Origin: Enterobacter sp. Ag1
Lineage (GTDB): Bacteria > Pseudomonadota > Gammaproteobacteria > Enterobacterales > Enterobacteriaceae
DNA length: 64,000 nt
Direction of reading: 5' to 3'
NCBI GenBank assembly: GCA_000277545.1
Contig: AKXM01000031.1
Coordinates: 124,001-188,000, forward strand
Position 1 is the first letter of the stretch, and each line of letters opens with the position of its first letter. Of the stretch, positions 21,797-49,222 are shown in pieces. The notes beneath the pieces were generated by a model. The model had not been told where the DNA came from. It saw only the letters and a program-made list of their open reading frames with translations, and made no database searches. The position numbers and the translations under genes were made by a program.

Positions 21797-22372
21797 GTGT
21801 CCCTGATGTCCCTACTCAAGCAACACCCGCTGATTGCAGCGGTAAAAGATAACCAGAGCCTGCAGCTGGCGCTGGAATCCGACTGCCAGGTGATTTCCGT
21901 GCTGTACGGCAATATCTGCACCATTACCGGCATCGTGCAGCAAATTAAGAAGGCGAATAAATACGCGCTGGTGCACGTCGATTTACTGGAAGGGACATCG
22001 AATAAAGAGATTGTGATTAACTTTCTGAAACTGGTGACCCAGGCCGACGGCGTGATCAGTACCAAAGCGCCAATGGTGAAAGCGGCCAGGGCGCAGGGGT
22101 TCTTTGCCATTCACCGGCTGTTTATCGTCGATTCCATCTCTTACCACAACATCGATAAACAGGTGGCCCAGTCGAACCCGGACTGCATCGAGATCCTGCC
22201 GGGATGTATGCCGAAAGTGATGAAATGGGTCACAGAAAAAATCGACCTGCCGGTGATTGCCGGTGGCCTGGTGTGCGACGCGGAGGATGCCAACAACGCA
22301 CTCAGCGCCGGGGCGTTGGCTATCTCCACCACCAATACCGGCGTCTGGCAGTTGGCTAAATATCTTCCCTGA
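21797..22372 (+). CDS. ygcP: YgcP, GlpP-family transcription antiterminator
   Basis: 191 residues, as in E. coli YgcP. The family (glycerol-3-phosphate responsive antiterminator) has a TIM-barrel-like fold: VLYGNICTI, HVDLLEGTSNKE, DGVISTKAPMVKAA, FIVDSIS, EILPGCMPKV, and IAGGLVCDAEDA are the conserved loops, the last two forming the expected phosphate-binding face. The GTG at 21797 has GGAG 8 bases upstream; the much longer frame from 21521 overlaps ygcO and is rejected. Bacillus GlpP binds glpD leader RNA when glycerol 3-phosphate is present. Two leaders in this cluster (27740-27803 and 27963-28028) carry a shared terminator/antiterminator module that is its likely target; this link is inference. 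Confidence 0.92.
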   Translation: MSLMSLLKQHPLIAAVKDNQSLQLALESDCQVISVLYGNICTITGIVQQIKKANKYALVHVDLLEGTSNKEIVINFLKLVTQADGVISTKAPMVKAARAQGFFAIHRLFIVDSISYHNIDKQVAQSNPDCIEILPGCMPKVMKWVTEKIDLPVIAGGLVCDAEDANNALSAGALAISTTNTGVWQLAKYLP

Positions 22373-23222
22373 CACAGGTTTGCAGCTCGGTTAGCACCGG
22401 CAGCAGGTCATCGACGATCCCCACATCGGCGTGGCGGAAAATCGCCGCCTGCGGATCGTTGTTGATGGCAACAATGAACCGGCTGTGGGCAATACCGCTG
22501 ATAAAGGCCGGTGCGCCGGAGACACCTGCCGCAATACAAACGTCTGCGGCAACCTGGGTACCGGATATCCCCAGCAGTTTGTCCATGCTGCACCAGGCGT
22601 GCATCACCGCTTCGCGGCTGGCGCCGGTTTCCATGCCCAGACAGCAGGCAATCTCCTCTACCTGCGCCATGGCTTGAGGGCTGCCAACTCCCCGTCCCAC
22701 CGCCAGCACAAGCCTGGCATCGGCCAGGCCGGATTCGGCTTCATCGGCAATTGCCCGGGATTCAAGCAGCCAGGCGGGCTTCTGTGCTGCCACGGGAATC
22801 GGTACATACTCGATCTCCGGTTGCCAGGGTTTGGCTCCCGGCGCGGCGGCTACGCTCAGGCACCAGGGCTTATTGTGCAGTTGAAGCTCAGCCACCAGCG
22901 CGCCGCCATAGGCGTTTTTGCGCACCACCTGCCGGGCAAAATCCGCGTCGTTAATCGCGCTCCACGCCTCCCCTTGCAGCCGGTGAGCCAGCCGGGTGGC
23001 AAGCTCCGCGCCCTGCCAGCCAGAAGGGAATAACAGCATGTCTACTGGGGCAGACACAAAATGGGTATACAACCCCTCCAGCAGCGGCTCGCTGAATTCA
23101 CTCTCCGGCAGCAGCCAGGCTTCGATATGTTCTGGTGCCATTTCACTGCACGCAATGAAATGCCCTATCTCACTGAGCGCCGACGCTTGCCTCGCTTCAG
23201 GCAGAACCAGGGCAATTTTCAT
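22356..23222 (-). CDS. ygcQ: YgcQ, electron-transfer flavoprotein alpha-like (FixB-like)
   Basis: 288 residues (E. coli 286). The C-terminal FAD-binding domain is clear: VLAVGRGVGSPQAM, then ETGASREAVMH, SGTQVAADVCIAAGVSGAPAFISGI and FIVAINNDPQAAIFRHADVGIVDD. It pairs with YgcR, overlapping it by 4 bases. The 3' end overlaps the convergent ygcP by 17 bases, so the two transcripts could form an antisense duplex. Confidence 0.92.
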   Translation of the reverse strand: MKIALVLPEARQASALSEIGHFIACSEMAPEHIEAWLLPESEFSEPLLEGLYTHFVSAPVDMLLFPSGWQGAELATRLAHRLQGEAWSAINDADFARQVVRKNAYGGALVAELQLHNKPWCLSVAAAPGAKPWQPEIEYVPIPVAAQKPAWLLESRAIADEAESGLADARLVLAVGRGVGSPQAMAQVEEIACCLGMETGASREAVMHAWCSMDKLLGISGTQVAADVCIAAGVSGAPAFISGIAHSRFIVAINNDPQAAIFRHADVGIVDDLLPVLTELQTCVREDI

Positions 23223-23998
23223 GATTTCATCCTTTTACGTAGCCAGTCGCGGTAGAGGCTGCGGACCTTTTCGCGCACATCGCTGCCCTGAATAATTAAG
23301 CCGCCGCGCTGCCGCTGAGGGTGATCCAGCCCGACCAGAGGAGAGAATGCCTCCTCATGACCAGGGACTTTCACAGGCAAGACCTCAACATCCGAAGCTT
23401 TCACCGCCAGCTTTTGTCGCAGGCCAGGCGTTCTCAGGCAGTAATCTCCACGGCTTTCAATCATCAGCACCGCAGGCAGCCGCACGGTCAGGCTGCGTTT
23501 TCCTGCGCCGTGCCGCTGTTTCAGGCAAAGCTGCTGCCGTTCAGCATCGAGCGTGAAATCATAGACCTGAGTGAAACACGGCCAGCCCAGCTGTTCGGCG
23601 AGATAAAACCCCGTCTGGCCGCTGTTACCTTCGGCGCTGCGTGAGCCCATGACCACCAGAGATTGAGAATGTTGCTGCTGCCATGCGGCCAGCAAGGCAG
23701 CCACTGAGTCGGGAGAAAAAGTCAGCTCGTCATCCGGCTGCAGCCGAACGGCTCGCAGGAACCCCAGCGCTTTGAACTGGCGAAGAAAGCTGTCCGCCCG
23801 CTCGTGACCAATGCTTAAGGCGGTAAGGTTTAAGCCTTCAGCCTGACGCAGCAGTATCTCCGCGGCAGCAGCCTCATCTTCTCCCAGACAAGGGCGCGTT
23901 ATCGAGGTGTCCAGGCTGCCCTGCCCGGCGGCCAGCCAGTCTTTTTCCGCCAGCATGGCGAGGTCTGGCTCGGCCTTAAAGGCTAACAGAATGTTCAT
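23219..23998 (-). CDS. ygcR: YgcR, electron-transfer flavoprotein beta-like (FixA-like)
   Basis: 259 residues. The ETF-beta fold is recognisable: MNILLAFKAEPDLAML at the N-terminus, LTALSIGHE, and VVMGSRSAEGNSGQTGFYLAEQLGWPC, which corresponds to the nucleotide-binding loop. It forms a heterodimer with YgcQ by family. It overlaps ygcS upstream by 23 bases and ygcQ downstream by 4 bases. Confidence 0.92.
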   Translation of the reverse strand: MNILLAFKAEPDLAMLAEKDWLAAGQGSLDTSITRPCLGEDEAAAAEILLRQAEGLNLTALSIGHERADSFLRQFKALGFLRAVRLQPDDELTFSPDSVAALLAAWQQQHSQSLVVMGSRSAEGNSGQTGFYLAEQLGWPCFTQVYDFTLDAERQQLCLKQRHGAGKRSLTVRLPAVLMIESRGDYCLRTPGLRQKLAVKASDVEVLPVKVPGHEEAFSPLVGLDHPQRQRGGLIIQGSDVREKVRSLYRDWLRKRMKS

Positions 23999-25331
23999 GA
24001 TTCACTCCCGGCGGCTGCTCTTTATTCCCGGACGCGGCCACAAGGCTCATGTTTCGCGTTTCCGGCGCCCAGAAGACGGAAACCAGCAGGCCCAGCATCA
24101 GAACCGCGCTCAGCAACAGCATGGTGTTTTGCACCCCGAAGGAGACCAGCGCCACCGGCAGCAGTCCGGTGCTAATTGCCGAACCCAGGCGGCTCATCGA
24201 CGTCGCAAACCCTACGCCCAGCGAGCGAATATCCGTCGGGAAACTCTCAGCGGGGAGAACGCCGACCAGGTTGCTGACCGCCGAAATGGTCAGCGTAAAA
24301 ACAAAGAACAGCAGCAGGATGAGGGTGCCGTGTTGTTCCGGCACCAGCGCCAGTGCGGTAAGGCTGAAGAACAGCACCAGAAAACCGCCGATCAGGAAGC
24401 CGCGTCTTGAGCAGCGGTGGGTCAGCACCAGGCCCGCGATCGCGCCCACCACCAGCACCACATTCAGCAACAGGCTGGCGGTCAGGCCATCCTGCATACC
24501 CAGCAGCCCGGTAATGGACGGCAGCCAGGTATAAATCGCAAACCACGGGATCACCAGGCAAACAAAGAACAGGCTATTAAACGCGGTACGCCGCCAGTAT
24601 TGCCCGGAAAACAACGTGCGGAGATGGCGGGAAGTTGGCACCGCAATCTCATCGCTAATAACAACATGTTCGCCGAAGCAGCGGCGCACAATCTGATGCG
24701 CTTCGGACACCCGCCCCTGGCGAAGCAGCCAACGAGGAGATTCCGGGGTGCCCCAGCGCAAGAAAGTGATTAACAACGCAGGCAACGCGGCCGACGCCAG
24801 CAGCCAGCGCCAGGCTTCCGGCCCGCTCTCCACTAGCTGATGCCCAATGAGGCTCGCCAGCACATAACCCAGCGTCCAGACCACACTAAAAGCGCCGAGC
24901 AACACGCCACGATGTTTGCGCGGGGCAAATTCGGCCAACATGGTGTGGCCCACGGAGTAGTCGCCGCCCAGCCCGATGCCAATCAGCACCCGCAGCAGAA
25001 TCAACTGCTCTACGTTACTAACGAAAAATTGTAAAAAGGAGGCCAGTGTGATGAGCACGAAGCTGAAGTTAAAGATTTTCTGACGACCAATATGATCGGA
25101 GATCCAGCCCAGCACCAGGCTGCCCAGAAACAGCCCAAACAGCGCCGAGCCGCCCACTAATCCTTCCTGAAGCGGCGTCAGGCTCATTTGCGGCGCAATC
25201 ATCACCAGCGCAAAGCCAATTACGCCGAGCACGTAGCCGTCCGTCAAGTGAGCGCCGAAGGTCAGCCCGGCAATGCGTAAATGAAAGCGATTAAGCGGCA
25301 GGTCATCCATACGAACCGGTTCGGCGTGCAT
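23976..25331 (-). CDS. ygcS: YgcS, major facilitator superfamily transporter
   Basis: 451 residues with about 12 membrane segments. The MFS sugar-porter-like signatures are present: GWISDHIGRQKIF between segments 2 and 3, GIGLGGDYSVGHTMLAEFAPRKHRG in segments 4-5, and PESPRWLLRQGR after segment 6. The substrate is unknown; the family includes aromatic acid, inositol and sugar carriers. It heads the ygcSRQ run, downstream of ygcU with a hairpin between. Confidence 0.92.
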   Translation of the reverse strand: MHAEPVRMDDLPLNRFHLRIAGLTFGAHLTDGYVLGVIGFALVMIAPQMSLTPLQEGLVGGSALFGLFLGSLVLGWISDHIGRQKIFNFSFVLITLASFLQFFVSNVEQLILLRVLIGIGLGGDYSVGHTMLAEFAPRKHRGVLLGAFSVVWTLGYVLASLIGHQLVESGPEAWRWLLASAALPALLITFLRWGTPESPRWLLRQGRVSEAHQIVRRCFGEHVVISDEIAVPTSRHLRTLFSGQYWRRTAFNSLFFVCLVIPWFAIYTWLPSITGLLGMQDGLTASLLLNVVLVVGAIAGLVLTHRCSRRGFLIGGFLVLFFSLTALALVPEQHGTLILLLFFVFTLTISAVSNLVGVLPAESFPTDIRSLGVGFATSMSRLGSAISTGLLPVALVSFGVQNTMLLLSAVLMLGLLVSVFWAPETRNMSLVAASGNKEQPPGVNHEHSVSL

Positions 25332-25401: not shown

Positions 25402-26856
25402 TTATTTTTCAATCGGCCAAATCGTGCCGGTGTTCATGATGCCGTTCGGATCGTACTGATCTTTCAGGCCCTGCATGATTGGCCAGGCGGTGCCGTGCTC
25501 CAGCCTGGACCAGTGCACGCGGTGCTTGCCGATCCCGTGGTGGTGCACCATCGAGCCGCCGAGGCGAATCGTCTCTTCCACGATGATTTTGTTCAGCGGG
25601 TTGTGGTACTTGTCGATCTCCTCTTCCGGCTTGCAGCCCACCACGTTGTAGTCGTACACAAAGTACATGTTGGTGCCGTTGATGTAGCTGTGGGAAGAGT
25701 GGCCGCCCAGCATAGTGATATCACCCGCATGTGGGAACTCGTTGCGAATGCGCTCGATCACATTGTGGTAAATCTCATTAATGCAGCTCCAGCTGCCAGA
25801 AACTTCCGTGGTAAAGCCCATGTTGCCGGTTTTCAGGATCTGCACACGTTCGGCGGCCACTTTATCTGGCCCCCAGTTCAGGTTGTTGAACCAGGTTTCG
25901 ATGAGCTTGCTGTCCACTTTCTTGCATTCCGGGTGGCGGGCAACAATTTCTTCGATGCCCGCGCCGGTCGCTTCAGCCAGGCGCTTAGAGCCTTCTGCCA
26001 TAAAGATCAGCACGCATTTGCCGTCGGCAAAATGGGTGAAGTGCTGGGTGCCATCTTCGGCGTCATACAGGCGGGCAATCGACGGACGGTAGCCTTCCAC
26101 CATCACTTCACGCAGGATGTTGAACCCGGTCTTCATGTTGTCGAGGATGTAGCCGTAGAACAGGTTGTTTTCCGGCATGTACTTGAAGATTTTTACCGTT
26201 ACTTCGGTGATGTAGCAGAGCGCCCCTTCGTTGCCGATGATCACGTGGCGAATGTCCGGGCCAGCGGCACGGCGCGGCACGTTTTTAATGCGCGTGATGC
26301 TGCCGTCCGGGAACACGGCTTCCAGACCAACCACCATGTCCTCAATCGCCCCGTACAGGGTTGAGAACTGGCCGATGCTGCGGGTTGCCACAAGGCCGCC
26401 CATTTGTGCCAGCGGTTTGGACTGCGGCGAGTGGCCGGTGGTGTAGCCTTTTTCACGCAGGGCGTCTTCCAGCACTTCCAGCGGCACGCCGCACTGGGCG
26501 GTGGCCTGCATGTTTTCAATGTCGATATCGACAATCTTGTTCAGCCCCGAGCCATCCAGCACCACGGAGTTTTTCACCACCGCTTCCAGGCCGCCTTCCG
26601 TTGCGGAAGCGCCGGTTCGCGGGATACAGGTGATGTGGTTGCTGTTGAGAAACGCCAGTACGCTGGAGACTTGCTCAGTGTTCTGCAGTTTCACTACCGC
26701 GGCCGGCAGCGGCTGAGTGTACACGCCATGAATATCCGCATATTTTCTGAACCGGTCGATACTGTTTTTCTGTAATACTTTTTCATCGGTAATAACCTGC
26801 TGTGGACCAACGATTTCTTTTAATTGATCCACAATTGCTTCGCGAGATAAAGACAT
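25402..26856 (-). CDS. ygcU: YgcU, FAD-binding oxidase of the alkyl-DHAP synthase type
   Basis: 484 residues, as in E. coli. The VAO/PCMH-type FAD domain shows PRTGASATEGGLEA (the dinucleotide loop) and ARSIG-like GGLVATRSIGQFSTLYGAIEDMV; the C-terminal cap has GGSMVHHHGIGKHR, the conserved His stretch of alkyldihydroxyacetonephosphate synthase-like oxidases. It may act on a phosphorylated polyol or ketose. The start at MSLSREAI (26856) has AAGGAG upstream; the frame from 26916 runs into the ygcW-ygcU hairpin. Second gene after ygcW. Confidence 0.93.
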   Translation of the reverse strand: MSLSREAIVDQLKEIVGPQQVITDEKVLQKNSIDRFRKYADIHGVYTQPLPAAVVKLQNTEQVSSVLAFLNSNHITCIPRTGASATEGGLEAVVKNSVVLDGSGLNKIVDIDIENMQATAQCGVPLEVLEDALREKGYTTGHSPQSKPLAQMGGLVATRSIGQFSTLYGAIEDMVVGLEAVFPDGSITRIKNVPRRAAGPDIRHVIIGNEGALCYITEVTVKIFKYMPENNLFYGYILDNMKTGFNILREVMVEGYRPSIARLYDAEDGTQHFTHFADGKCVLIFMAEGSKRLAEATGAGIEEIVARHPECKKVDSKLIETWFNNLNWGPDKVAAERVQILKTGNMGFTTEVSGSWSCINEIYHNVIERIRNEFPHAGDITMLGGHSSHSYINGTNMYFVYDYNVVGCKPEEEIDKYHNPLNKIIVEETIRLGGSMVHHHGIGKHRVHWSRLEHGTAWPIMQGLKDQYDPNGIMNTGTIWPIEK

Positions 26857-26905
26857 GACAACTCCTTCCTGACAAATAAGGGAATACGGATATAAATAAG
26901 AGAAA

Positions 26906-26921
26906 GCAGGAACCACCCTGC
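26906..26921 (-). terminator. Weak hairpin between ygcW and ygcU
   Basis: On the minus strand GCAGG, a 6-base loop and CCTGC, then TTTCTCTTATTT, directly after the ygcW stop. The short stem suggests partial read-through. Confidence 0.5.
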
Positions 26922-26926
26922 GAAAA

Positions 26927-27712
26927 CTACCTGACTAAATAACCACCATCAACGACTAACAAATGGCCATTAACATAATCTGAAGCACGGCTGGATAAAT
27001 AAACCATTGCCCCCATAAGATCCTGCGTTTCACCCCAGCGGTTGGCTGGAATATGATCCAGTACGCGCTTGTTGGTTTCCGGGTTTTTACGCGTTTCGGT
27101 AGTAATATCGGTGGCATAATAACCAGGCGCAATACCGTTCACCTGAATATTATATTGGCCTAATTCATCGCAATACGCTTTCGTTAAACCGGCCAGCGCG
27201 TGTTTTGTGGCGGAATAAGCCGGAGACCACTGGCCGCCAAGATAAGAAAATAGCGAACAGATATTAATAATTTTTCCGTGCTTTTGCGGGATCATCACTT
27301 TGGCCGCCTCGTGACTTAATTCGAACGCCGCGGTCAGGTTAATGTTGATCATCGGGTCCCAGTCGGCGCGGCCGAAATCCAGCACCTTGTTGAGCTTACA
27401 GATCCCGGCGTTGTTGACCAGAATATCCACCGAACCAAAGGTTTCCAGGCACTGGGCGATGACCTGAGCCGGGGCACCTTTCTCCGTGATATCCACGGTC
27501 ATAAACGCCACTTTTACGCCTTGTTGTTCAATTAGTTGACGCGTTTCGCCTTTCTCTTCCACCACCGTTGGAATAAACACATTCGCGCCAGCCTTAGCCA
27601 GCGCCATGGCGAAGGCCTGCCCCAGCCCGCTGTTACCGCCGGTGACAATCGCCGTCTTCCCCTTGAGCGAGAAGAAGTCCAGTGAGAATTCGTTGAGTGC
27701 GCTGAGCGACAT
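26927..27712 (-). CDS. ygcW: YgcW, short-chain dehydrogenase/reductase
   Basis: 261 residues, as in E. coli. Classical SDR: the cofactor loop TGGNSGLGQAFA, NNAGIC, the catalytic Ser in INICSLFS, the YSATKHALAGL active-site Tyr and Lys, and the PGYYATDITTE tail. The closest relatives by memory are 2-deoxy-D-gluconate 3-dehydrogenase/KduD-type enzymes. AAGGAG lies 6 bases before the ATG. It is the first gene after a leader holding a terminator, so expression probably depends on antitermination. Confidence 0.93.
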   Translation of the reverse strand: MSLSALNEFSLDFFSLKGKTAIVTGGNSGLGQAFAMALAKAGANVFIPTVVEEKGETRQLIEQQGVKVAFMTVDITEKGAPAQVIAQCLETFGSVDILVNNAGICKLNKVLDFGRADWDPMININLTAAFELSHEAAKVMIPQKHGKIINICSLFSYLGGQWSPAYSATKHALAGLTKAYCDELGQYNIQVNGIAPGYYATDITTETRKNPETNKRVLDHIPANRWGETQDLMGAMVYLSSRASDYVNGHLLVVDGGYLVR

Positions 27713-27739: not shown

Positions 27740-27803
27740 AAAAAAAATGAGAAAAGCAAGCTCCCCCCGAAAGGGAAGTTACTTTTCTCATCATCTCTAG
27801 TAA
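27740..27803 (-). promoter_or_regulatory. ygcW leader: terminator with overlapping antiterminator hairpin
   Basis: Read on the minus strand: TTACT (27803-27799), a 15-base loop starting AGAG and ending ATGAGAAA, then AGTAA (27783-27779). The last element is also part of the terminator arm GAGAAAAGTAA (27789-27779), which pairs with TTGCTTTTCTC (27759-27749). Eight T follow after one A. The two structures exclude each other. The same module, with the same loop length, is found in the yqcE leader. Proposed target of YgcP; the structure is seen, the regulator is inferred. Confidence 0.8.
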
Positions 27804-27841
27804 CTGGCTAAAATAAGTATCACAGCGGTGGGGGCATGTTG

Positions 27842-27857
27842 TGTGATCAACATCACA
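27842..27857. promoter_or_regulatory. CRP-type site serving ygcW
   Basis: TGTGA, six bases, TCACA: both half-sites match the CRP consensus. The centre is about 46 bases from the ygcW leader element. With an ATACTT-like -10 near 27815-27820 it would sit near -41.5, a class II position. Confidence 0.75.
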
Positions 27858-27910
27858 ACTCATTAACAAGAGGGTTCTATCGCTAAATTATTCGCCGTGA
27901 AAACCAATAT

Positions 27911-27926
27911 CGTGATATTTCTCACA
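27911..27926. promoter_or_regulatory. CRP-type site serving yqcE-ygcE
   Basis: CGTGA, six bases, TCACA: one mismatch from the CRP half-sites. A TTAATA/TAATAAT -10 lies at 27947-27954, predicting a start near 27960 and placing the site near -41.5. Confidence 0.68.
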
Positions 27927-27962
27927 CTAAAAAAACACGCTGCATGTTAATAATCTCCGCAA

Positions 27963-28028
27963 TTACTAGAGCCCATGAGAAAAGTAATCAGCCCTTAAAA
28001 GGGGATTGGTTACTTTTCTCTTTTTTTT
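27963..28028 (+). promoter_or_regulatory. yqcE leader: terminator with overlapping antiterminator hairpin
   Basis: TTACT (27963-27967), a 15-base loop AGAGCCCATGAGAAA, then AGTAA (27983-27987). That element ends the terminator arm GAGAAAAGTAA (27977-27987), which pairs with TTACTTTTCTC (28010-28020), followed by eight T. The inner stem is CCC/GGG-rich. It matches the ygcW leader module in sequence, loop length and order. The predicted transcript start (about 27960) is right at the module. Confidence 0.82.
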
Positions 28029-28061: not shown

Positions 28062-29360
28062 ATGCGTGATTCAAATTTTCGCCGCTGGCTAACGCTGGCA
28101 ATAATAAGTATCAGTGGTGGTGTAAGTTTTGACCTTGCTTATTTAAGGTATATTTACCAAATCCCCATGGCAAAATTTATGGGGTTTAGCAATACCGAAA
28201 TAGGCTTAATTATGAGTACATTCGGAATAACCGCAATTATCCTTTATGCGCCGAGTGGAATTATTGCTGATAAATTCTCTCACCGCGTAATGATGACGCT
28301 GGCGATGATTGCCACCGGCCTGTTGGGGATTGTGATGGCTTTCTATCCGCCGCTGTGGGTAATGATCGTCATTCAGGTCGCCTTCGCCGTGACCACCATT
28401 CTGATGCTGTGGTCGGTCTCCATTAAGGCGGCTTCCCTGCTGGGGGATCATAGCGAGCAGGGAAAAATCATGGGCTGGATGGAAGGCCTGCGCGGCGTCG
28501 GCGTGATGGCGCTGGCGGTATTCACCATGTGGGTGTTTTCGCGCTTTGCGCCGGAAGATGCCAACAGCCTTAAAGCCGTTATTCTTATCTACAGCGGCGT
28601 TTATATTGCGCTTGGCGTGCTGTGTTGGTTCTTTGTCAGCGACGGCTTTACCGGCCGCACAGAAGGTGCTCAGGCAGCCAAAAAACCGGCCTTCCAGCTC
28701 AAAGATATTCTGTCCGTTTTACGGATAAGTACCACCTGGTACTGCAGTATGGTGATCTTCGGGGTTTACACCATTTATGCCATCCTGAGCTATTCCACCA
28801 ACTATCTGACCGAGATGTACGGCATGTCGCTGGTGGCCGCCAGCTACATGGGCATCGTGATCAATAAAATCTTCCGCGCCTTTTGCGGCCCGCTGGGCGG
28901 CATTATTACGACCTACAGCAGAATTAAATCTCCCACTCGCGTGGTGCAGTTGCTCTCTATTGTTGGCGCAGTCGCACTAATAGCGCTGCTGGCGACCAAC
29001 GCCAATCCTCAGTCCGTTGCGATGGGCATTGGGCTTATTTTACTGCTGGGGTTCACCTGTTACGCCTCACGCGGGTTGTACTGGGCCTGCCCCGGCGAAG
29101 CGAGAACGCCGCCCTATATTATGGGAACCACCGTGGGTATCTGTTCGGTCATCGGCTTCTTGCCGGACGTATTCGTATACCCGCTTGTCGGCCACTGGCA
29201 GGACACCCTGCCCGCAGAAGAAGCCTACCGCAACATGTGGCTGATGGGATTAGCCGCACTGTGCATGGTCATCGTGTTTGCCTTTTTGCTGATTCGCAAA
29301 ATTCGCGCCGCCGACATCGCACAGGAAAAATTGGCATCGCTGGCCGCAACGGGCGAGTGA
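28062..29360 (+). CDS. yqcE: YqcE, major facilitator superfamily transporter
   Basis: 432 residues with 12 predicted membrane segments; the N-terminus enters the membrane around residue 10. GIIADKFSHR after segment 2 is the MFS loop motif. The segment pair around residues 270-300 (GIVINKIFRAFCGPLGG) and the late ASRGLYWACPGEARTPP are conserved in YqcE/UhpC-like carriers. It likely imports the substrate phosphorylated by YgcE, which follows 26 bases downstream. Controlled by the leader terminator just upstream. Confidence 0.9.
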   Translation: MRDSNFRRWLTLAIISISGGVSFDLAYLRYIYQIPMAKFMGFSNTEIGLIMSTFGITAIILYAPSGIIADKFSHRVMMTLAMIATGLLGIVMAFYPPLWVMIVIQVAFAVTTILMLWSVSIKAASLLGDHSEQGKIMGWMEGLRGVGVMALAVFTMWVFSRFAPEDANSLKAVILIYSGVYIALGVLCWFFVSDGFTGRTEGAQAAKKPAFQLKDILSVLRISTTWYCSMVIFGVYTIYAILSYSTNYLTEMYGMSLVAASYMGIVINKIFRAFCGPLGGIITTYSRIKSPTRVVQLLSIVGAVALIALLATNANPQSVAMGIGLILLLGFTCYASRGLYWACPGEARTPPYIMGTTVGICSVIGFLPDVFVYPLVGHWQDTLPAEEAYRNMWLMGLAALCMVIVFAFLLIRKIRAADIAQEKLASLAATGE

Positions 29361-29386: not shown

Positions 29387-30865
29387 ATGTCGAAGCAATA
29401 CATCATTGGGATTGATGGTGGAAGCCAGAGTACAAAAGTCGTGATGTACGATCTGGCAGGTAATATCGTCTGCGAAGGCAAGGGGCAGCTGCAGCCGATG
29501 TACACGCCGGACGCGGATACCGCCGAACACCCTGACGACGATCTGTGGGACTCGCTGTGCCGCGCCGGGCAGGATTTAATGAGTCACTTCACAGGAGACA
29601 TAAGTGCGATAGTTGGGATTGGCCTCGGCTCCATACGCTGCTGTCGCGCCTTATTAAAGGCCGACGGCACCCCAGCTGCGCCGCTGATCAGCTGGCAGGA
29701 TGCCCGCGTCACCCGCCCCTACGAGCACACAAATCCTGATGTGGCCTGGGTGACTTCATTCTCGGGTTACCTGTCCCATCGCTTAACCGGCGAGTTCAAA
29801 GACAATATCGCCAACTATTTTGGCCAGTGGCCGGTGGACTACAAAACGTGGTCATGGAGCGACGACGGCGAAGTGCTGAAGAAATTTAATATTCCACGCA
29901 CCATGCTGTTTGATGTTCAGATGCCGGGTACGGTCATTGGCCATCTCACAGAAAACGCAGCGAAGGCTACGGGCTTCCCGGCCGGATTACCGGTCGTTTG
30001 TACCACCAGCGATAAGCCGGTTGAAGCGCTTGGGGCCGGGCTGCTGGATGATGAAACGGCGGTGATTTCTCTCGGCACCTATATCGCGCTGATGATGAAC
30101 GGCAAAGCGCTGCCAAAAGCCCCCGTGGCCTACTGGCCCATTATGTCGTCTGTGCCTGAAACGCTGTTGTATGAGGGCTACGGCATCCGCAAAGGAATGT
30201 GGACGGTAAGCTGGCTGCGGGACATGCTGGGCGAGTCGTTGATTCAGGATGCCAAAGCGCAGAATCTTTCCCCGGAAGGGTTATTGAACAAGAAAGCCGC
30301 GCTGGTGCCGCCGGGCTGTAACGGCTTAATGACCGTGCTGGACTGGCTGACCAATCCCTGGGAACCGTTTAAGCGTGGGATCATGATAGGTTTTGATTCC
30401 AGCATGGACTACGCGTGGATTTACCGCTCGATACTCGAAAGCATCGCCCTGACGCTGAAAAACAACTACGACAATATGTGCCATGAGATGGACCACTTTG
30501 CCAAACATGTGATCATCACTGGCGGCGGCTCCAACAGCGACCTGTTTATGCAGATCTTTGCCGACGTGTTTAACCTGCCGGTCAGGCGTAACGCGATCAA
30601 CGGCTGCGCAAGTCTGGGAGCGGCAATCAACACCGCCGTCGGGCTGGGGCTGTATACCAGCTATGAAACCGCCGTCGAAAAAATGGTGCGGGTCAAAGAC
30701 GTGTTTATGCCCGTTGAAAGCAACGCTAAACGCTATGAGGCGCTAAACAAAGGCATTTTCAGGGAGTTAACGCAGCACACTGACGTGATTCTGAAAAAAT
30801 CGTATCAGGTGATGCACGGCGAGTTAGATAACACGGACTCGATTCAAAGCTGGTCCAACGCTTAA
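29387..30865 (+). CDS. ygcE: YgcE, FGGY-family carbohydrate kinase
   Basis: 492 residues, as in E. coli. The N-terminal phosphate loop IGIDGGSQSTKVVMYD and the second ATP domain (AVISLGTYIALMM, ITGGGSNSDLFMQIFADV) are clear. The catalytic Asp of the GDQ-type motif is in SWQDARVT or the CTTSDKP loop. The substrate is probably a polyol or ketose; the family includes glycerol, xylulose and gluconate kinases. It has an AAGGAG ribosome site. Its product could be the ligand sensed by YgcP, which is inference. Confidence 0.92.
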   Translation: MSKQYIIGIDGGSQSTKVVMYDLAGNIVCEGKGQLQPMYTPDADTAEHPDDDLWDSLCRAGQDLMSHFTGDISAIVGIGLGSIRCCRALLKADGTPAAPLISWQDARVTRPYEHTNPDVAWVTSFSGYLSHRLTGEFKDNIANYFGQWPVDYKTWSWSDDGEVLKKFNIPRTMLFDVQMPGTVIGHLTENAAKATGFPAGLPVVCTTSDKPVEALGAGLLDDETAVISLGTYIALMMNGKALPKAPVAYWPIMSSVPETLLYEGYGIRKGMWTVSWLRDMLGESLIQDAKAQNLSPEGLLNKKAALVPPGCNGLMTVLDWLTNPWEPFKRGIMIGFDSSMDYAWIYRSILESIALTLKNNYDNMCHEMDHFAKHVIITGGGSNSDLFMQIFADVFNLPVRRNAINGCASLGAAINTAVGLGLYTSYETAVEKMVRVKDVFMPVESNAKRYEALNKGIFRELTQHTDVILKKSYQVMHGELDNTDSIQSWSNA

Positions 30866-48779: not shown

Positions 48780-48850
48780 GAAAACCTCATTCGTCAGTGG
48801 AAAAGAGCGGTACAGAATAACACTTCTTCGCTGCCCGTGAAAAAGGCATA

Positions 48851-49222
48851 AAAAAAGGGAGCACTGTTTACACAGTGCTCCCGGTTCGTTTCGCAGCTAA
48901 TCCAGCTACTTTTTATGCTCCCTGCTCATCCATGACAACTTTGTCCTCTGGTCTCCTGACCAGCAATCCATCGCCAGGGCTTCCTGCTGCCATCATCCTG
49001 ATGGGTGTCCAACATCATCCTGACGCGAAATCCTTAAGTCTTCCTGACCCACCGCACTCCTGTTACGGCTCTCATTCTCCGTCCTGGAGGTGTCCTTTAA
49101 CTCTGCCTGAGTTATCCATGCTTCATCTGTGAAGCCTTCCTTGTTCGCCATCCCGGCGGGTTCCTTTTGTAAGAAGCGACATCATCCTAATGTCTCCTTC
49201 ATTACGTCGACATCCTGTCGAT
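48851..49222 (-). ncRNA. csrB: CsrB regulatory RNA
   Basis: An untranslated RNA of about 370 bases that binds and titrates the translation regulator CsrA. On the minus strand it contains about two dozen GGA motifs, many as AGGA or CAGGA in short hairpin loops. The 5' end is near ATCGACAGGATG and the 3' end is the terminator GGGAGCACTGT/ACAGTGCTCCC followed by a T run. A TATATC-like -10 lies just upstream. Position between yqcC and syd is the E. coli one. The exact 5' end is estimated. Confidence 0.93.

Follow-up and report, generated by a model that had tools for sequence, protein, structure and literature searches.

The window, a 64-kb stretch of Enterobacter sp. Ag1 DNA, contains a ygc gene cluster arranged as in Escherichia coli. 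On the plus strand, queD, ygcN, an open reading frame in the ygcO position and ygcP follow one another. The minus-strand genes ygcQ-R-S-U-W come next, and then the plus-strand pair yqcE-ygcE (Table 1). ygcS and ygcQ were named by Pfam and ygcR by its match to the E. coli namesake; gene order and strand suggest that these three genes belong to the ygcW operon. YgcP matches PF04309 (G3P_antiterm) with an E value of 8.4e-64 and 214.6 bits, against a cut-off of 27, and the solved Listeria GlpP chain 3kts with an E value of 2.7e-32. Proteins of the GlpP family are TIM barrels. Among the eight cluster proteins scanned, we found no BglG-family antiterminator.

Table 1 Features of the ygc cluster and its two leaders (positions in the window)
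Feature	Position	Strand	Description
ygcP	21797..22372	+	GlpP-family protein, proposed reader of both leaders
ygcS, ygcR, ygcQ	22356..25331	-	Transporter (ygcS) and ETF-like proteins (ygcR, ygcQ); presumed remainder of the ygcW operon
ygcU	25402..26916	-	FAD-linked oxidase; follows ygcW
ygcW	26927..27712	-	SDR oxidoreductase; first gene after the minus-strand leader
ygcW intrinsic terminator	27740..27789	-	5′ arm GAGAAAAGTAA... begins within the antiterminator loop; 3′ arm CTTTTCTC 27756-27749; T run down to 27740
ygcW antiterminator hairpin	27777..27805	-	AGTTACT 27805-27799, loop AGAGATGATGAGAAA 27798-27784, AGTAACT 27783-27777; 7 bp; covarying stem
CRP-like site, ygcW promoter	27842..27857	-	TGTGATGTTGATCACA; centre 44.5 nt before the antiterminator
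CRP-like site, yqcE promoter	27911..27926	+	CGTGATATTTCTCACA; centre 42.5 nt before the antiterminator
yqcE antiterminator hairpin	27961..27989	+	AATTACT 27961-27967, loop AGAGCCCATGAGAAA 27968-27982, AGTAATC 27983-27989; 6 pairs
yqcE intrinsic terminator and T run	27977..28028	+	3′ arm CTTTTCTC 28013-28020; T run to 28028
yqcE	28062..29360	+	MFS transporter; first gene after the plus-strand leader
ygcE	29387..30865	+	FGGY-family kinase; second gene after the plus-strand leader

Between ygcW and yqcE, the 289-base stretch 27740..28028 holds two copies of one shared module on opposite strands, which form the divergent leaders of ygcW (minus strand, 27740-27805) and yqcE (plus strand, 27961-28028). 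In both leaders, the 5′ arm of the terminator starts within the 15-nt loop of the upstream hairpin, and both folds need the segment GAGAAA-AGTAA, making the antiterminator and the terminator mutually exclusive. The terminators are predicted at -27.4 kcal/mol for ygcW (z -4.9) and -25.0 kcal/mol for yqcE (z -4.2), energies that none of 200 shuffles equalled in either case. The upstream hairpins alone reach -4.5 kcal/mol (ygcW) and -2.7 kcal/mol (yqcE) and are not more stable than shuffles, of which 53 of 200 and 97 of 200, respectively, fold as well; such weakness is expected if a protein must stabilise the fold. The pattern TTACTAGAGNNNATGAGAAAAGTAA, allowing at most three mismatches, occurs twice in the 64 kb and in none of 100 shuffles, and its two matches in the whole 4.75-Mb genome are these two leaders. 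The first-pass annotation had described twin terminator/antiterminator modules with incompatible folds, and both strands bear this out; it gave the first stem 5 bp, where we count 7 bp in ygcW and 6 bp in yqcE. It had also placed a GlpP-family gene near the leaders in the same cluster, correctly except for the distance, which is about 5.4 kb rather than 6 kb.

Leader position and mutually exclusive folds would also suit a riboswitch in which the RNA itself binds a metabolite. We consider this highly improbable and rejected it: no Rfam family reaches its gathering score at the leaders, the conserved part is merely a 15-nt loop on a stem of 6-7 bp, and the module accompanies a protein gene across phyla. 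In a riboswitch-prediction paper, two rows for ygcW lie 3.5-4.2 kb away, outside the leader (PMC4448311). The only family to pass in the Rfam scan of the window was CsrB, at 48847-49212 (RF00018, 266.5 bits).

Distribution of the module and of YgcP in the family

We sought PF04309 in 294 genomes of the family and found 40 above the cut-off, comprising 35 with a YgcP orthologue (at least 202 bits), four with only a distant, type-2 protein (G207, G280, G074 and G027) and one with a stop-containing fragment (G190). In 247 genomes drawn from the order, three exceeded the cut-off, all of them from the window's own family. Loci of 11-19 kb were then compared, namely 34 YgcP-orthologue loci besides that of the window, six type-2 loci and one E. 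coli locus. With a strict pattern, the count was exactly two modules per locus for the window and for 31 of the 41 loci, giving 64 modules, 58 of them distinct.

Ten loci were missed by the strict pattern (L034, L039, L046, L062 and L068-L073), L062 owing to a contig end and L068-L073 as type-2 GlpP loci. In L034 (15850-16000; genome G155) and L039 (15848-16000; G243), ygcP and the other genes are kept, and both divergent promoters and antiterminators are lost; one fused terminator, flanked by A and T runs, lies between ygcW and yqcE, as if inverted repeats had recombined. In L046 (G148), ygcP is unlinked, lying on a different contig from the ygc cluster and its modules, with an apparent metH and a flavodoxin gene as neighbours, judged by reading. 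In the rearranged cluster of G180, the modules precede ygcW and ygcE. Separately, yqcE of G238 (L036, 16257-17539) is read in two overlapping parts, each in its own frame, as a frameshift would leave it.

A covariance model of the module (R1; 58 rows, enterobacterial training only) was run on the same 294 genomes. At E<1e-9 it matched 35, identical to the 35 that carry YgcP orthologues, although G155 and G243 were matched solely through the terminator remnant; in the other 259 genomes nothing appeared at E<1e-5, and weak matches (E 1e-4 to 0.008) were seen in the YgcP-less G112, G191, G255, G265, G274 and G287. Because the training rows come from most of the 35 positive genomes, and none from G195 or G148, the information is carried by the negatives and by these two genomes. 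Orthologues of yqcE occur in 34 genomes, every one with ygcP, and in none without it. As ygcP, the target genes and the module are co-inherited in the family, linkage alone could explain their co-occurrence there. The match would then also arise if the attenuators were read by another protein, for example of the BglG/LicT type or some other RNA-binding protein, with ygcP a mere neighbour.

Sequence constraint and covariation

Pair counts were taken from a model alignment of 66 rows, 61 of them distinct (A2), because a MAFFT alignment (A1) had shifted the stems by three columns in five modules with long loops; one such row (L067 5910) remains shifted in A2. This alignment was fitted to the terminator rather than the antiterminator. 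In it, the antiterminator stem is paired in 93.2% of cells, compared with at most 54.6% for slid versions. Four of its seven pairs are changed on both sides, a count reached by 17 of 500 shuffles, and neither its covariation score nor its percentage paired was reached by any of the 500. The number of further pair types in the antiterminator carries no signal (500 of 500 shuffles reach it). The terminator is 98.1% paired, both sides have changed in 10 of its 15 pairs, and none of the 500 shuffles comes as high on any measure, although this count leans to the terminator's own structure because A2 was fitted to it. The base common to all three arms is T/A/T in 43, C/G/C in 13 and C/A/T in two of the 58 distinct modules; pair 7 of the antiterminator is C-A in two of the 58, and 24 of 61 rows lack the outermost pair. 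Many rows share ancestry, so independent covariation events are few, and we estimate three or four in the antiterminator. Two expectations raised by the first-pass annotation thus hold: both stems of the module covary, and the module is restricted to ygcP genomes (35 of 35 with a YgcP orthologue, G155 and G243 as remnants, and 0 of 259 others at E<1e-5).

The first unit of the loop is GAGA in 60 of the 64 modules and GAGC or GAGT in four, including the yqcE leader of the window (GAGC); it is separated from the second unit by four bases in 55 modules and by three in nine. These positions bear on whether the leaders are plain terminators with no regulated switch, there to insulate the two divergent CRP promoters or to tune them. 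Such a role would agree with terminators far more stable than the upstream hairpins, and with G155 and G243, which keep just the fused terminator. However, large parts of the upstream arm and of the first loop unit are at least 90% conserved although the terminator does not use them, the antiterminator pairs covary, and in other phyla the module is again found next to GlpP genes. Together these results make plain terminators very unlikely.

A ribosome-mediated attenuator, with the loop ATG (ATGAGAAA...) as the start of a leader peptide, is hardly credible. Of the 64 leaders, 38 have ATGAGAAA at the end of the loop, the two window leaders among them, but the ATG is missing in the other 26, including E. 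coli yqcE, and on this count we rejected the leader peptide. What is kept is GAGAAA, which the search pattern required, and the GAGA unit is found in Streptomyces and Bacilli leaders as well.

Another argument, that E. coli-type ygcW terminators skip the second GAG, was dropped: the G still makes a G-U pair. In three loci (L035, L036 and L038), the two terminators match each other exactly within a genome but vary from one genome to the next, a pattern suggestive of gene conversion between the inverted leaders; the promoter segment that they enclose could possibly invert.

GlpP loci in other phyla

The enterobacterial model R1 also found the module beside GlpP genes in two further phyla, with E values of 7e-10 in Streptomyces clavuligerus and 1e-6 in Enterococcus raffinosus in a search of 33 loci. 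In S. clavuligerus, AGTTACT-AGAGACCAGAGAAC-AGTAACT and a terminator lie upstream of a ygcW orthologue; identities are 66% for YgcW, 60% for YgcU, 49% for YgcE and 50% for YgcP. In E. raffinosus, GTTACT-GGAGACCAGAGAGA-AGTAAC precedes an MFS gene (31% to YqcE) that adjoins glpP, and a second R1 match (E 0.0065) lies just past glpP, towards a ygcW orthologue (62%), with an IS110 element intervening. The modules of both species adjoin GlpP genes 48-50% identical to YgcP, near ygcW/ygcU orthologues of 60-66%. In a 38-row tree, YgcP lies outside the Bacillus/Listeria glycerol branch, in a group with the proteins of E. raffinosus, E. gilvus, Streptomyces and L148; support is moderate (90/93), and the tree program flagged long branches.

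The S. clavuligerus cluster, of the form ygcP-ygcW-ygcU-ygcE and with the same leader module, is on a plasmid (L155, 7962-13128). In Peptoclostridium (L152, 8500-8560), GGT-GGAGACTAGAGAAA-ACC lies between glpP and a HAD hydrolase gene, with the same loop and no obvious terminator arm.

In Bacilli, a GAGA-N3-5-GAGA repeat whose second unit stands at the start of the terminator occurs in the Cytobacillus glpF and glpD leaders and in the Paenibacillus leaders before glpP-glpK and glpD. Three leaders of L144 (Bacilli) carry the repeat likewise, with the second unit opening the terminator, as do eight of eight Listeria glpD leaders; Listeria glpF deviates, with a spacer of 1 between the units. The flanking stems are short, with 2-5 pairs as scored, and the exact enterobacterial stem pattern has no match in 348 Bacilli genomes. 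R1 scores most of these glp leaders weakly (E 0.02-5.6, among chance matches of similar score), so what links the Bacilli leaders to the module is the motif and its place rather than the model score. Upstream of the GAGA repeat, the Bacilli glp leaders have a conserved AAGTTAATA. In L120, L121, L123-L131 and L144, AAGTTAATA, or AAGTTAAT with a varied last base, is at the expected RNA start.

A composite scan for GAGA-N2-6-GAGA, a stem of at least four pairs and a terminator was applied to 67 loci (1,236,904 bases). Because these loci were chosen around GlpP genes, the scan tests position within them. It gave 67 matches at 67 places, namely 58 of the 62 enterobacterial modules there, the four others having GAGC or GAGT and being unable to match, and nine more, all in glp/ygc-type leaders or directly adjoining glpP; a Markov control gave two matches in 3,710,712 bases. 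No match fell in the enterobacterial L034, L039, L046 and L062, in the seven loci of type 2 or in 11 other loci with GlpP. The eight Listeria glpP loci gave none either, the glpD and glpF leaders of Listeria being located elsewhere.

The type-2 GlpP proteins of enterobacteria (L068-L073 and L132) are 27-29% identical to YgcP, and none of their seven loci has the module. Their neighbours include kinase, SDR, aldolase and PTS genes (L132, 9189-15241) and a YgcU-like gene (L068 and L071); the L132 operon is preceded by a terminator hairpin with one GAGA unit.

These comparisons return us to a reader other than YgcP. YgcP is the putative reader, and in the family linkage could account for the match. 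Against another reader, GlpP genes accompany the same module in both Streptomyces and Enterococcus; besides them, the shared neighbours that we matched there encode enzymes and a transporter. In addition, glp leaders orthologous to known GlpP targets have the loop core too. We therefore regard another reader as unlikely.

Promoters, proposed mechanism and related systems

The best CRP-like site within 90 nt upstream of the module has nine or ten of ten consensus bases in 61 of 64 leaders, compared with one of 64 after shuffling, and its centre lies 41.5-44.5 nt upstream of the hairpin in 62 of 64. Such spacing is that of class II sites, so the RNA should begin at the hairpin or within a few bases of it, and the putative promoters of both leaders are placed by this spacing. 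In E. coli, CRP has been reported by SELEX to bind between ygcW and yqcE (PMC3105977), a genome-wide binding table for an ETEC strain includes CRP at ygcW<>yqcE (PMC4287617), and PhyloScan predicted a CRP site between the two genes (PMC1794230). A small RNA upstream of yqcE and on its strand was reported in E. coli MG1655 by RNA-seq and Northern blot, the RNA coming from LB and M9 glucose cultures (PMC4681348). Its position fits a terminated leader, which it may well be.

Taking these observations together, we propose that the leaders are very probably protein-dependent transcription attenuators, with YgcP the GlpP-type antiterminator of both. We computed the exclusion of the folds, co-occurrence, covariation, CRP spacing and recurrence across phyla; binding of the RNA by YgcP, a ligand and read-through in vivo are inferred. 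CRP-cAMP would set the RNA start at the first hairpin or a few bases from it, as the class II spacing suggests. Without inducer, the nascent RNA would form the strong terminator and stop after about 65 nt. Ligand-bound YgcP would read the loop GAG(A)-N3-4-GAGAAA and stabilise the first hairpin, withholding GAGAAA-AGTAA from the terminator, so that polymerase could read into ygcW-ygcU-ygcS-ygcR-ygcQ and, on the opposite strand, into yqcE-ygcE. Gene content prompts the guess that the ligand would probably be a phosphorylated metabolite, either the product of the FGGY kinase YgcE or a compound like it.

The RAT hairpin of the BglG/LicT/SacY systems overlaps the 5′ arm of a terminator and is stabilised by a protein; the ygc hairpin likewise overlaps the terminator 5′ arm. 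LicT reads two stem bulges and the minor groove between them (PMC7430163), whereas in the ygc module it is the loop that is conserved, and the protein linked to it belongs to the GlpP family. HutP, a different protein, reads short repeated RNA motifs, clusters of NAG, in a ligand-dependent manner (PMC7430163), as YgcP would. The closest comparison is with GlpP, which together with glycerol 3-phosphate is described as disrupting leader terminators (PMC9604022). As in B. subtilis GlpP control of glpD, glpFK and glpTQ, the ygc system has a PF04309 protein and leaders in which an intrinsic terminator follows directly on the promoter (PMC9604022, PMC7430163). Among the Bacilli compared, orthologous glpD/glpF leaders of Cytobacillus, Paenibacillus (glpD) and Listeria share the GAGA repeat at the terminator start. 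In contrast to the GlpP system, the ygc targets are not glycerol genes but encode an SDR, an FAD oxidase, transporters, ETF-like proteins and an FGGY kinase, the leaders are divergent twins with CRP-type promoters and no AAGTTAATA at the RNA start, and the stem is longer and sequence-constrained (GTTACT/AGTAAC). In the open-access papers of PMC, we found no paper describing these leaders as YgcP targets and none assigning a function to YgcP or the ygc cluster; the ygc leader gene names are absent from the main text of an attenuator survey (PMC2965389).

The interpretation as GlpP-type antitermination is well supported, and it brings a regulon and a host range that are new, together with a common RNA signal that we propose. 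Whether it extends further seems to us evenly balanced: GAGA-N3-5-GAGA in a loop, with its 3′ half opening the terminator, could be a general GlpP-family RNA signal in at least three phyla, with stems that vary and are re-tuned for each regulon. YgcP would then have been re-purposed to a metabolite other than glycerol 3-phosphate, the YgcE product, giving E. coli a glycerol-independent regulon whose terminated leader is the reported small RNA. Because these leaders can serve directly as a reporter, one can screen for the ligand and hence for the substrate of the pathway. E. coli, which has ygcP and the ygc cluster in the same gene order, gains a testable mechanism, a defined RNA target and a regulon of two operons, and a terminated leader offers an explanation for the small RNA reported upstream of yqcE.
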